Assembly: GCA_937128475.1 (NCBI GenBank)
Contig: CAKZML010000122.1
Span: 1-48,299, forward strand
DNA: 48,299 nucleotides
Direction of reading: 5' to 3'
From: an uncultured Chromatiales bacterium
Lineage (GTDB): Bacteria > Pseudomonadota > Gammaproteobacteria > Steroidobacterales > BM003
The first letter of the stretch is position 1. Each line of letters begins with the position of its first letter. A program made the position numbers and the translations under genes. Below are positions 30,406 to 35,091 of the stretch, piece by piece. The notes under the pieces were generated by a model that had not been told where the DNA came from, did not search any database, and saw nothing but the letters and a program-made list of their open reading frames with translations.

Positions 30406-31082
30406 TTCGCTTTGAACAGGTTGCCAAGCGCTACCCCGGTGGGCGAGAAGCTCTTTCGGAGTTAAACATGAGCATGGAGAAGGGCGAGATGGCCTTTCTC
30501 ACTGGCCATTCCGGCGCCGGGAAAAGCACCCTGCTGAAATTAATCGCCCTGATCGAACGACCCACCCGCGGGCAGGTCATTATCAATGGCCAGAATACCA
30601 ACGGCGTCAGCAGGCGAAAAATCCCCGCCTACCGTCGCCAGATCGGCATGGTTTTCCAGGACCACAAACTACTCTACGACAGAACTGTCATGGACAATGT
30701 CGGCCTGCCGCTGGTCGTGCAGGGCATTGGCCACCGGGAGGTCGGCCGCAGAGTCAGGGCGGCCCTGGACCAGGTTGGATTGCTGGGTAAGGAAAAACTG
30801 TTTCCTGTGGCGTTATCCACCGGAGAGCAGCAACGGGTGGGTATCGCGCGGGCCGTGGTGTCAAAGCCCGACCTGCTTATCGCGGACGAACCCACTGGCA
30901 ACCTGGATCCGGAACTGTCCCTGGAAATCATGAATCTTTTTCAGCGCTTCAACGATGTAGGGGTCACCTTGTTGATCGCAAGCCATGACCTGGCACTCGT
31001 GGAACGACTGGGGAAACGCAGAATCATCCTGGAGTCGGGGCGACTGAAGCAGGGCAGCCAGCCCGGAGGCTTTCATAGATGA
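30402..31082 (+). CDS. ftsE: Cell division ATP-binding protein FtsE
   Basis: 226 aa. ATPase of the FtsEX complex, which activates septal murein hydrolases. Seen: Walker A GHSGAGKST (about 35), the Q-loop GMVFQDH, the signature LSTGEQQRVGIARA (a variant with T for the first G of LSGGE), Walker B LLIADEPTGNLD and the switch His ASHD. The start is TTG at 30402 (LIRFEQV read as MIRFEQV), overlapping the ftsY TGA; there is no better ATG that keeps the conserved beginning. It overlaps ftsX by ATGA. Confidence 0.95.
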   Translation: MIRFEQVAKRYPGGREALSELNMSMEKGEMAFLTGHSGAGKSTLLKLIALIERPTRGQVIINGQNTNGVSRRKIPAYRRQIGMVFQDHKLLYDRTVMDNVGLPLVVQGIGHREVGRRVRAALDQVGLLGKEKLFPVALSTGEQQRVGIARAVVSKPDLLIADEPTGNLDPELSLEIMNLFQRFNDVGVTLLIASHDLALVERLGKRRIILESGRLKQGSQPGGFHR

Positions 31083-32095
31083 ACCGCCGTCGACCTGTCC
31101 GCAAGGATAAGCAGCCCCGAGCCGCCAGGAGAAAGCCCACCGCCGGATCCGGCGTCGGACTCCCGGGCCTGATCAAGGCGTATTTCACCCGCCACGCACA
31201 GAACCTGTTCTCCGCCCTGGGCCGGATGGTCAGGCAACCGGTAGGCAGCCTGCTCACCGTGACGGTGATTGGCATCGCGCTGTGCCTGCCTGTCGCGCTG
31301 CACCTGCTGGTGGTCAATGGCAAGGCCATCACCAGCAGCTGGGACAGTGCTGTGGATTTGACCGCCTATCTGAAAACCGGCCAATCCAGCGATGTGGTGC
31401 AAAAGCTGGCCACCAAGCTGCGTCAGCGACCAGACATCAGCAATGTGGACGTGATTCCTGCGGACAAGGCACTGGAAGAATTCCGCGAACTATCCGGCTT
31501 CGGGGAAGCCCTGGACGCACTGACATCCAATCCCATCCCTGACGTGCTGGTCATCCGCCCTGCGGAAGAAAACCTCAGTGCGACCAGCGTTAAATTGCTG
31601 GCCGACGAACTTAGCAACTGGAAAGAGATCGATCTTGTCCAGGTGGACACCGCTTGGGTGGAACGTTTCCACGGCCTGCTTAGTATCCTGCGCCGGGCAG
31701 TGACCCTGGCCGCAGGCGTACTGGCGGTGGGAGTCGTGGTGATTGTGGGCAACACCATCCGGCTGGACATCCAGAACCGCAAAAATGAAATCGAGGTCTG
31801 CAAACTGATTGGCGCCAGCGATGCATTCATCAGACGGCCTTTCCTGTATAGCGGCTTCTGGTACGGCCTGGGCGGGGCATTCATCGCCTTGCTGGTGGTA
31901 AACGCAACCCTGCTACTGCTGCAGCAACCCATCCGCCAGGTAGCCGGGCTGTATGGCAGCAATTTCGAGCTAATGGGGCTGGATCCAGCCTTTACCCTGC
32001 TCATCCTGGCGGGGGGCTCGGGCCTGGGCTGGCTCGGATCCTGGCTGGCAGCAACCCGCCATATGCGCCTGATCGAACCAGGCAAAGAATCCTAA
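31079..32095 (+). CDS. ftsX: Cell division protein FtsX
   Basis: 338 aa. Membrane partner of FtsE. Seen: a long basic, Pro-rich cytoplasmic N terminus (about 1-50), TM1 near 60-80 (SLLTVTVIGIALCLPVAL), a periplasmic domain (about 85-200) that would engage a hydrolase activator, and three C-terminal hydrophobic segments (about 205-228, 255-280, 300-322) with the FtsX motif RLDIQNRKNEIEVCKLIGAS between. It overlaps ftsE by 4 nt. Confidence 0.93.
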   Translation: MNRRRPVRKDKQPRAARRKPTAGSGVGLPGLIKAYFTRHAQNLFSALGRMVRQPVGSLLTVTVIGIALCLPVALHLLVVNGKAITSSWDSAVDLTAYLKTGQSSDVVQKLATKLRQRPDISNVDVIPADKALEEFRELSGFGEALDALTSNPIPDVLVIRPAEENLSATSVKLLADELSNWKEIDLVQVDTAWVERFHGLLSILRRAVTLAAGVLAVGVVVIVGNTIRLDIQNRKNEIEVCKLIGASDAFIRRPFLYSGFWYGLGGAFIALLVVNATLLLLQQPIRQVAGLYGSNFELMGLDPAFTLLILAGGSGLGWLGSWLAATRHMRLIEPGKES

Positions 32096-32149
32096 CCCAC
32101 TGTTTTATAAGATAATAAAATAGTCCCTCAATCGGAACTTAACAGGGGT

Positions 32150-32176
32150 TTAGCACTCTAACTCCCTGAGTGCTAG
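32150..32176 (+). promoter_or_regulatory. CIRCE operator (HrcA site) overlapping the rpoH promoter region
   Basis: TTAGCACTC, nine bases, GAGTGCTAG: 17 of 18 bases match the CIRCE consensus TTAGCACTC-N9-GAGTGCTAA. The right arm runs into TAGAAT (32174-32179), a plausible -10, with TTAGCA (32150-32155) 18 bp before it as a weak -35. HrcA bound here would block the polymerase. CIRCE is known for HrcA repression of groESL and dnaK operons. Confidence 0.88.
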
Positions 32177-32212
32177 AATTCGTTATCCCGATGTGGAGGT
32201 ACGCCCGAAAAT

Positions 32213-33079
32213 ATGAGCAACGCTTTGGCAATTCGCCCTACAGACCTGGTTGTTACCGGTCCGATTGGAAGTCTGGACGCCTATATACAGGCAGTGTCCG
32301 TTATTCCTGTACTCAGTCCGGAGGAAGAGCATGACCTGGCGGTACGATTCCGGGATGAAGAAGACCTGGAAGCTGCCCGCACCCTGGTGCTTTCCCACCT
32401 GCGCTTCGTCGCGCACATCGCCCGTGGCTACTCGGGTTACGGCCTGAACCTTGGCGACCTGGTACAAGAAGGCAACGTGGGCCTGATGAAGGCCGTGAAA
32501 CGCTTCGACCCCGATATGGGTGTCCGCCTTGTGTCCTTTGCGGTGCACTGGATACGCGCTGAAATTCATGAATACGTGTTGCGCAACTGGCGACTGGTCA
32601 AGGTGGCTACCACCAAGGCACAGCGCAAACTGTTTTTTAACCTGCGCAAGGCAAAGAAGAACCTGAGCTGGCTCAACCAGGAAGAAACCGAGGCAGTTGC
32701 CCGGGACCTGGGGGTATCCGCCACCGAAGTTACCGAGATGGAAAAACGCATGTCCGCAAGGGACATGATGTTTGACGCCCCCTCGGATAGTGACGATGAG
32801 CGCGGTGGTTACGGCGCTTCCAACTTCCTGCCGGCGGCAAATTCGGACCCGGCGGAAATCGTCGAGGCCTATGACTGGGAACAAAGCACCCAGCGGCGCC
32901 TGATGGACGGAATCAAGACGCTGGACGAACGCAGCCAGGACATCATTCGTCGCAGGTGGATTACCGAGAGCAAGGAAACCTTGCAGGAACTGGCCGATGA
33001 ATATGGCGTGTCAGCCGAGCGCATTCGCCAGATCGAGAACAACGCGATCAAGAAACTCAAGATGCAAATCGCCACCTGA
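32213..33079 (+). CDS. rpoH: RNA polymerase sigma factor RpoH (sigma-32)
   Basis: 288 aa. Heat-shock sigma factor directing RNA polymerase to chaperone and protease promoters. Seen: region 1.2/2.1 ([32 protein letters not shown]), region 2.3-2.4 ([32 protein letters not shown]), the RpoH box QRKLFFNLR (about 140), and region 4.2 ([20 protein letters not shown]). GGAGG precedes the ATG by about 14 nt. There is a 117-bp gap from ftsX with its own promoter signals and a CIRCE element, so it is probably transcribed separately from the fts genes at least in part. Confidence 0.96.
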
Positions 33080-33102
33080 GCTTGATAGCTAACGCAAACA
33101 AA

Positions 33103-33129
33103 AATCCCGGCTTTCGCCGGGATTTTTTT
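33103..33129. terminator. Rho-independent terminator between rpoH and the OmpA lipoprotein gene
   Basis: AATCCCGGC-TTTC-GCCGGGATT, a perfect 9-bp stem with a T run on the right and an A run on the left. It can serve both converging genes. Confidence 0.92.
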
Positions 33130-33154
33130 GCCTGTAAAAAATAATCCGAAACGG

Positions 33155-33829
33155 TTACTGGGTCACCGGCACCAGGGTCAACTCAACCCGACGATTCAGC
33201 GCCCGACCTTCCGGCGTACCGTTATCGGCCACCGGGCGGGTTTCACCCATGCCTACGCGAATCATGCGCATTTCCAACACGCCCCGATTTACCAGGTAAC
33301 CGGCCACGGTGGCTGCACGACGTTCCGACAAGGCCTGGTTGTACTGGTCGCTACCGGTAGAATCGGTATGCCCTGCCACTTCCACCACGGTCTTGTCGTA
33401 TTCCTTCAACACCAGGGTTACCGAATCCAGCACGGCGAAGAAGTCAGCCTTGAGATCAGAACTGTCGCTGCCAAATGTCACGTTGCCCGGCATATTCAGG
33501 GTGATTTGATCACCGTTGCGGCTCACGCTGACGCCGGTGCCTTCGAGCTGCTTGCGCAAAACCATTTCCTGCTTGTCCATATAGCCGCCAACGCTACCGC
33601 CGGCGATCGCGCCTACTCCGGCACCGATCATGGCATGCTGCCGCCGCTCCACCGCATCATCCCCGCTGATCAGACCGATGACTGCACCAGAGACCGCACC
33701 GATAATCGCGCCCTTGGTCGCCGACGAGGTTTTTTCCTCGTGGGTATAGGGATCCAGCGTAGTGCAGGCCGACAGTAAAACAGCCGCAGTCAGCAGGGAT
33801 ACAGCAGTTTTTTTCGTATATTTATTCAT
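33155..33829 (-). CDS. OmpA-family lipoprotein with glycine zipper (YiaD-like)
   Basis: 224 aa from the ATG at 33829; GGAG lies 6 nt upstream, and an ATG two codons earlier overlaps that site. Seen: a lipobox LLSAC (Cys about 22), a glycine-zipper region with GAIIGAVSGAVIG and GAGVGAIAGGSVGG (about 40-80) that may insert in a membrane, and a C-terminal OmpA domain (about 110-224) with TFGSDSSDL, EVAGHTDSTGS and NRRVEL, which bind peptidoglycan. Inferred: an outer-membrane lipoprotein tethering the envelope to murein. It is the second gene after another OmpA-type lipoprotein. Confidence 0.9.
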   Translation of the reverse strand: MNKYTKKTAVSLLTAAVLLSACTTLDPYTHEEKTSSATKGAIIGAVSGAVIGLISGDDAVERRQHAMIGAGVGAIAGGSVGGYMDKQEMVLRKQLEGTGVSVSRNGDQITLNMPGNVTFGSDSSDLKADFFAVLDSVTLVLKEYDKTVVEVAGHTDSTGSDQYNQALSERRAATVAGYLVNRGVLEMRMIRVGMGETRPVADNGTPEGRALNRRVELTLVPVTQ

Positions 33830-33900
33830 TGTCATCTCCGTTGTTTGTTCATTCCGGTAAGCCTCTTGCCACCGGATTAACGGCCCACCACGGGGCCTGA

Positions 33901-34596
33901 TTATTCTTTACCGCCCTCGCTCCGCGATCCTGGTTCCACGGCCAGCAAGGGCACGATTCGAATTTCTACGCGGCGGTTCTTCCGCCTGCCCTCGTCACTG
34001 GCATTATCCGCCAACGGCTGGGTATCTGAACGCCCCTCAACCACCATCCTCGCCGGCGCCACTCCCTGGGCCTGGAGCACATCCGCCACCGACCGGGCCC
34101 GTTCTCCGGAAAGTCGCTGGTTAATGGCGGCACTGCCGGTACTGTCCGTGTGACCGCTTATCTCCAGCAAACTCAAGGAATAACTGGCCAATACCCTTGC
34201 CCCTGTCTCCAGGTGCATAGCTGAATCCGTGGATAGCTCTGCGCTACCCACCTCGAAAGCAAGTTCCGAAGACAGGCGCAGCAAGACCATTTCCTGAGCC
34301 TCTTGCACCTGGGCCGTATCACCAACGGCAGCCTTGAGTTCCCTCGCGACGGCAGACATATACAGCCCGACATTGCCCGGTGCAACCGACACCTGCCCGG
34401 CTGCCAGCAATTGCTCCTGGCGCCCTCGCAAAGCCTCGGTCTGGTAGGTTGCCCTTACCATCTGCGTTGCCTCTGGCTCCAGGTCCACCGGCCCGCTTGC
34501 GCAAGCCGACACCAATCCTAGACCCACTACTATGAACCCTGCCTTAACGGCGGGCCAAGCCCGGTTGCAATGCTCCGGCCGCCCGCGTAGCGTCAA
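33901..34596 (-). CDS. OmpA-family lipoprotein
   Basis: About 231 aa if started at the TTG at 34596. The frame is open far upstream, with ATG codons at 34668 and 34695, but those starts would overlap the divergent Mpo1-like gene. Seen: a signal with lipobox LVSAC (KAGFIVVGLGLVSAC), a helical middle (about 45-110), and an OmpA C-terminal domain with FEVGSAELS, LEISGHTDSTGS, LSGERARSVAD and KNRRVEIRI. It is likely cotranscribed with the OmpA lipoprotein 71 bp downstream. Both should bind peptidoglycan; a division of labour is not evident. The start is uncertain. Confidence 0.8.
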   Translation of the reverse strand: MTLRGRPEHCNRAWPAVKAGFIVVGLGLVSACASGPVDLEPEATQMVRATYQTEALRGRQEQLLAAGQVSVAPGNVGLYMSAVARELKAAVGDTAQVQEAQEMVLLRLSSELAFEVGSAELSTDSAMHLETGARVLASYSLSLLEISGHTDSTGSAAINQRLSGERARSVADVLQAQGVAPARMVVEGRSDTQPLADNASDEGRRKNRRVEIRIVPLLAVEPGSRSEGGKE

Positions 34597-34623
34597 TCTC
34601 CAACGGGCAGGAGATACAGCGCC

Positions 34624-35091
34624 ATGCGCACCGCCGACCAGTGGTTCAATGTCTATACAGCGACTCATGAGCATCCAGTTAATAAGCTGATTCATCGATT
34701 TTGCGCCCCGCTGGCTGCGATCAGCATCATAGGCTTGCTGTGGTCGCTGCCGAGTCCCGAGGCTTTCACACGCATCTCGCCCGCCCTGAACTGGGGGTCG
34801 GCATTCGTTATGGCAGCCATTGTCTACTATTTCATCATCTCTATCACACTGGGCTTCGGCATGATCCTGGTGATGCTGGGCCTGATGGTCGGAATTCACT
34901 GGCTGGGCCACCAATGGCCTCCCCTGTGGGCATCCAGCCTGGGCCTACTGCTGTCCTGCCTGCTGGCGATGCTCGCCGGCCACGCGCTGGAAGGTCAAAA
35001 GGTCCGCCTGCTGTATGACCTGCAACTGGTCATGCTGGCCCCGATCTTCCTGCTGGCGGTAGTTTACCGTCGCCTCGGAATTTCTTACTAA
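34624..35091 (+). CDS. Mpo1-like (DUF962) membrane protein
   Basis: 155 aa. Seen: an N-terminal signature with W-F-x-x-Y-x-x-x-H-x-x-P-x-N-x-x-I-H and FCAP, which provides the conserved His residues of the family, a central HWLGHQW motif, and four hydrophobic segments. Known: yeast Mpo1 is an iron-dependent dioxygenase in fatty acid alpha-oxidation at the ER; the bacterial members are uncharacterised. AGGAG lies about 10 nt before the ATG. It is divergent from the OmpA lipoprotein gene. Confidence 0.82.
   Translation: MRTADQWFNVYTATHEHPVNKLIHRFCAPLAAISIIGLLWSLPSPEAFTRISPALNWGSAFVMAAIVYYFIISITLGFGMILVMLGLMVGIHWLGHQWPPLWASSLGLLLSCLLAMLAGHALEGQKVRLLYDLQLVMLAPIFLLAVVYRRLGISY

Follow-up and report, generated by a model that had tools for sequence, protein, structure and literature searches.

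A predicted HrcA operator sharing bases with putative sigma-E and sigma-70 promoters of rpoH in Gammaproteobacteria that carry hrcA

The sigma-32 gene rpoH in the window (the whole stretch of 48,299 nucleotides that was analysed) is preceded by a CIRCE element whose bases are shared with predicted sigma-E and sigma-70 promoters. We consider it very probable that this element is an HrcA operator built into the rpoH promoter region, which would repress both promoters until heat titrates GroEL. The layout recurs in many gammaproteobacteria with hrcA and is almost always missing without HrcA, so that in the members of the class where it occurs a serial connection of the two textbook heat-shock systems is probable. 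The features of the locus are as follows.

31079–32095, + strand: ftsX, the upstream neighbour (TIGR00439, above the curated cut-off)
32134–32140, + strand: −35 element of the predicted sigma-E promoter, GGAACTT (pattern match; kept at offset −16 from CIRCE)
32150–32176, + strand: CIRCE operator, predicted HrcA site, a 9-9-9 inverted repeat with 17/18 agreement to the consensus (pattern match; kept before rpoH in relatives)
32150–32155, + strand: weak −35 element of the predicted sigma-70 promoter, TTAGCA (identical with bases of the CIRCE left arm)
32157–32161, + strand: TCTAA, −10 element of the predicted sigma-E promoter, separated from the −35 by 16 nt (within the CIRCE left arm and spacer)
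32171–32179, + strand: extended −10 element of the predicted sigma-70 promoter, TGCTAGAAT (made up of CIRCE right-arm bases and the next 3 nt)
32213–33079, + strand: rpoH, sigma-32, 288 aa (TIGR02392, 405.7 bits against a cut-off of 323.1)
33100–33127, no strand assigned (listed on the − strand): terminator-like hairpin directly after rpoH, a palindrome between convergent genes

The positions 32150–32176 read TTAGCACTC TAACTCCCT GAGTGCTAG, in agreement with the consensus used here (TTAGCACTC-N9-GAGTGCTAA, 9-nt spacer) at all but one of the 18 arm positions and with a spacer of exactly 9 nt; the rpoH start lies 36 bp downstream of the end of the element. This is the sole match with three or fewer mismatches in the 48-kb window, 100 shuffles of the window gave 0.00 matches at that threshold, and the whole 3.06-Mb genome contains two such sites, one before rpoH and the other before groESL, with the reversed control pattern yielding 0 matches in the same genome. 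The shuffles and the two sites in 3.06 Mb led us to reject a chance match. The preliminary description of this DNA had reported a 17-of-18 CIRCE with the exact spacer, placed between ftsX and rpoH; the former is confirmed by the window sequence, the shuffles and the genome scan, and the latter by FtsX and RpoH assignments that both exceed curated cut-offs. It had drawn the element over 32150–32179, of which the start stands, but the operator ends at 32176 and the last 3 bases belong to the sigma-70 −10 hexamer TAGAAT. Downstream, two reading frames on the − strand are convergent with rpoH, a YiaD-family OmpA-like lipoprotein gene (33155–33835) and an ORF (33901–34914) whose C-terminal sequence is similar to that of the adjoining lipoprotein.

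The sigma-E promoter form (GGAACTT, a 16-nt spacer and TCTRA or TCAAA) is matched by GGAACTT-N16-TCTAA at 32134–32161, and in the whole genome this rpoH site is the only exact match to GGAACTT-N16-TCTNA. This promoter, with its −10 inside CIRCE, had been absent from the preliminary description and is probably the key promoter of rpoH. The second candidate, TTAGCA-N18-TAGAAT, carries the upstream TG of an extended −10, and its boxes coincide with the two CIRCE arms; it is the sole sigma-70-like promoter in 32000–33300, a region whose shuffles average 0.6. The proposed overlap of CIRCE with plausible −35 and −10 elements is thereby borne out, as the predicted promoters overlie the element rather than lying far off. 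From the positions of the boxes, rpoH transcription is predicted to start at ~32167 (sigma-E) and ~32186 (sigma-70). Autoregulation of rpoH by sigma-32 was also considered and rejected, since the best sigma-32-like match in 32096–32212 has 4/13 mismatches and is unconvincing.

The search for hrcA elsewhere in the genome, proposed in the preliminary description as a check, returned one copy, which heads an hrcA-grpE-dnaK cluster on a different contig (PF01628, E 1.2e-66, 225 bits against a cut-off of 22.2). A second proposed check, the scan for further CIRCE sites before groESL or dnaK, located a perfect site ~60 bp before groES, adjoined by a sigma-32-like CTTGAAA-N13-CGCTAT (2 mismatches); no intact site was found at the hrcA-grpE-dnaK operon of this genome, where the best candidate has 7 mismatches. 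The predicted HrcA regulon is therefore groESL and rpoH only. Upstream of hrcA, at L003:1029–1057 (contig C27 of the same genome), the sequence AGCACTC-TCGGATATCT-CCGGTGCGCTAA is a probable decayed CIRCE, similar to the intact CTAGCACTCGGATATCTCGAGTGCTAA found in other genomes (L118, L125); the operator has apparently been lost at hrcA but kept at rpoH and groESL. This remnant indicates that such sites do decay, and the palindrome before rpoH might by the same token be a relic or a chance likeness without a functional repressor; we regard that as extremely unlikely, given that the shuffles, the genome scan, the presence of hrcA, and the co-conservation and composite pattern counts described below all oppose it. 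Many hrcA-operon CIRCE elements of other genomes (L117–L146) read CTGGCACTC-N9-GAGTGCCAG or similar, with up to 4 mismatches from the consensus, and at these loci the hrcA operator appears weaker than that of rpoH or groESL. The genome also encodes an RpoE ortholog (TIGR02939, 301 bits against a cut-off of 236), with the sigma-E-type promoter AGAACTT-N16-TCTAT upstream of rpoE.

The wider comparison covered 370 gammaproteobacterial genomes of at least 90% completeness, 277 of them with hrcA; the rpoH upstream region was read in the 130 genomes whose RpoH is most like that of the window, so the resulting frequencies are not class-wide. With CIRCE called at three or fewer mismatches, the element precedes rpoH in 104 of 115 genomes with hrcA and in 1 of 15 without it (Fisher p 3e-11, related genomes not being independent). 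Counted as distinct family/state combinations, presence to absence is 63:6 with hrcA and 1:9 without (p 2e-7), and the rpoH CIRCE with its fused promoters is kept across 64 family-level groups. The absence of hrcA from a draft genome may reflect an assembly gap; for the one exception, G083, in which no hrcA was found, this is suggested by the fact that CIRCE occurs at groES as well as at rpoH. Since 11 of the 115 genomes with hrcA (G297, G290, G099, G133, G341, G312, G329, G235, G136, G214 and G182) have no CIRCE before rpoH, the wiring is evidently dispensable. All 11 carry at least one CIRCE elsewhere; where the loci were read, it mostly precedes groES.

In named genomes, 80 loci that encode the closest RpoH proteins were compared; at most of them CIRCE lies 50–150 bp before rpoH, usually with the sigma-E −35 16 or 17 bases upstream of the element. 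Examples include Woeseiaceae, Steroidobacteraceae, Thioalkalivibrio, Alcanivorax, Ketobacter, Haliea and Silanimonas; the Halomonas, Marinobacter and Pseudidiomarina relatives have no rpoH CIRCE and keep a sigma-E-like promoter. Conservation in relatives, likewise suggested at the outset as a check, was thus observed, and the site tracks hrcA. The arrangement had been taken as unusual, but it is instead the common state among the sampled Gammaproteobacteria with hrcA; that the site is special to the source organism is ruled out by this spread and by the composite matches reported below. Two variations were seen among the relatives. In family f67 hrcA and rpoH lie ~3 kb apart on one contig (C39 of G066, C3 of G342), unlike in the window's genome. 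In L032 (Pseudoxanthomonas), G012 and G245, a variant operator, TTAGCAGTC-N9-GA(C/T)TGCTAA, takes the place of the canonical CIRCE at rpoH, which suggests co-evolved HrcA specificity in this group.

The fusion of operator and promoter was analysed by comparing the 105 rpoH sites with 39 control CIRCE sites, 25 at hrcA and 14 at groES. A sigma-E −35 in register (−15 to −17) accompanies 89/105 rpoH sites and 0/39 control sites (p 1e-22). The first three positions of the CIRCE spacer (9–11) are biased to TAA in the rpoH sites (T 0.67, A 0.54, A 0.82), a bias that completes the sigma-E −10 and is not seen in the hrcA and groES controls. T29, the last base of the sigma-70 −10, is present in 95/105 rpoH sites, against 8/25 hrcA and 0/14 groES sites (the hrcA and groES counts being taken from the control listing), and TGCTANNNT is found in 93 of the 105 rpoH CIRCE sites. 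A 45-bp composite pattern, searched with at most one mismatch, occurs in 129 of the 370 genomes, a lower bound because one mismatch and one register only were allowed; 128 of these 129 genomes have hrcA, the composite sites lie directly before rpoH wherever both coordinates were compared, and the reversed composite control was found in 0/370 genomes.

One genus offers a pair that differs in hrcA. G245, which has the gene, carries an intact palindrome with GGAACTT...TTAGCAGTCCAAATCCCGGACTGCTAA, whereas G149, which lacks it, has a mutated left arm and a spacer of 10 nt, with GGAACTT-N16-TCCAA and TGCTAAGAT still in place. This contrast fits the expectation for a palindrome retained on account of HrcA and promoters retained in their own right, although it concerns a single pair in which the absence of hrcA from G149 rests on a draft assembly. 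The dependence on hrcA also bears on whether the palindrome acts mainly as an RNA hairpin in the rpoH leader, affecting mRNA stability or translation, rather than as a DNA operator. CIRCE has been reported to exert such effects in some Bacillus leaders, and as RNA the repeat forms a clean hairpin of 10 bp. However, a transcript beginning at either predicted start would not hold both CIRCE arms, the hairpin z-score is merely −1.6, and both the 9-nt spacer and the sequence identity are kept, neither of which pairing alone needs. Considering that the predicted starts omit the left arm and that the dependence on hrcA would go unexplained, we judge a main role as an RNA hairpin to be quite improbable.

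For the operator reading, the order of events that we infer begins with GroEL keeping HrcA active, so that HrcA on the operator would be a steric obstacle to RNA polymerase at the sigma-E and the sigma-70 promoter alike. Heat or misfolded protein would occupy GroEL, HrcA activity would be lost and rpoH derepressed, whereupon sigma-E and sigma-70 polymerases would make rpoH mRNA. Sigma-32 would then raise groESL, and probably the hrcA-grpE-dnaK operon too, until GroEL is free again and the reactivated HrcA closes the loop. The GroE-titration model of HrcA comes from Bacillus, where it is established; GroEL dependence is assumed here. Within such a circuit sigma-E would raise rpoH only as far as HrcA releases it. 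The earlier proposal of two heat-shock systems in series thus finds support at the sequence level, in the predicted operator, the presence of hrcA and their co-conservation, but its count falls short: with the predicted sigma-E −10 inside CIRCE, sigma-E would enter the circuit as a third system beside HrcA and sigma-32.

The weight of this repression relative to later control steps has to be considered. The textbook view of sigma-32, in which mRNA structure, chaperone binding and proteolysis control it, comes from E. coli, a species that lacks HrcA and in which its control after transcription is established knowledge. HrcA could accordingly be a weak modulator beside translational and proteolytic control, binding the site as a minor brake while the level of rpoH is set almost wholly after transcription, and the 11 genomes that have hrcA and manage without an rpoH CIRCE are in line with this. 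Against it, the operator with its fused promoters has been retained across the family-level groups counted above, and the predicted rpoH mRNA is no more structured than shuffles over its opening 294 nt (32167–32460; z 0.28, a weak test on a single fold), which gives no hint of a strong RNA thermometer. We regard the minor-brake explanation as rather unlikely. For the class as a whole, we see the chances as evenly balanced that the rpoH promoter of Gammaproteobacteria with hrcA is an ancient coincidence switch, in which sigma-E and sigma-70 would drive rpoH only upon release of HrcA by GroEL shortage, and that the HrcA-less control of the E. coli type is derived, the operator having been lost with hrcA and the sigma-E promoter kept. 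Such a switch would combine envelope stress (sigma-E) with cytoplasmic folding stress (GroEL shortage). If HrcA does act at rpoH in the many gammaproteobacteria that have retained the repressor, E. coli would be a poor model of their heat-shock onset, and a single 45-bp promoter would be the meeting point of envelope stress, chaperone shortage and the sigma-32 regulon, a fused layout that is open to clear and cheap testing in culturable relatives.

The closest known systems each share part of this arrangement. With the HrcA/CIRCE control of groESL and dnaK operons in Bacillus and many other bacteria it has in common the operator sequence, the 9-nt spacer and the repressor family; it differs in that the target is a sigma factor gene, the operator shares bases with sigma-E and sigma-70 promoters, and the window's genome has CIRCE at groESL but no intact one at hrcA. 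In E. coli, P3 is the sigma-E promoter of rpoH; with its 16-nt spacer it drives rpoH next to ftsX, as here. The HrcA search was negative in the E. coli control genome, and the 52-bp rpoH upstream region gave no match against E. coli genomes. In Neisseria gonorrhoeae, MtrR represses rpoH (PMC10850145), likewise as a DNA-binding repressor directly on the gene, but MtrR is unrelated to HrcA, and the signals it answers to are small molecules, steroids among them, rather than chaperone capacity. The only direct precedent for CIRCE before rpoH found in the open-access literature is a prediction for Geobacter sulfurreducens, at position −51 directly upstream of rpoH (Table 8 in Rodionov et al. 2004, PMC545781), which amounts to the same proposed wiring. 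No description of the sigma-E/CIRCE fusion or of its dependence on hrcA was found in that literature, within which CIRCE before rpoH is already known as a prediction, and the promoter fusion and the hrcA dependence are new. The Geobacter case concerns one delta-proteobacterium with no sigma-E promoter described, whereas the element presented here spans many gammaproteobacterial families, depends on hrcA in its distribution and is fused to the promoters of the gene that it is predicted to control.
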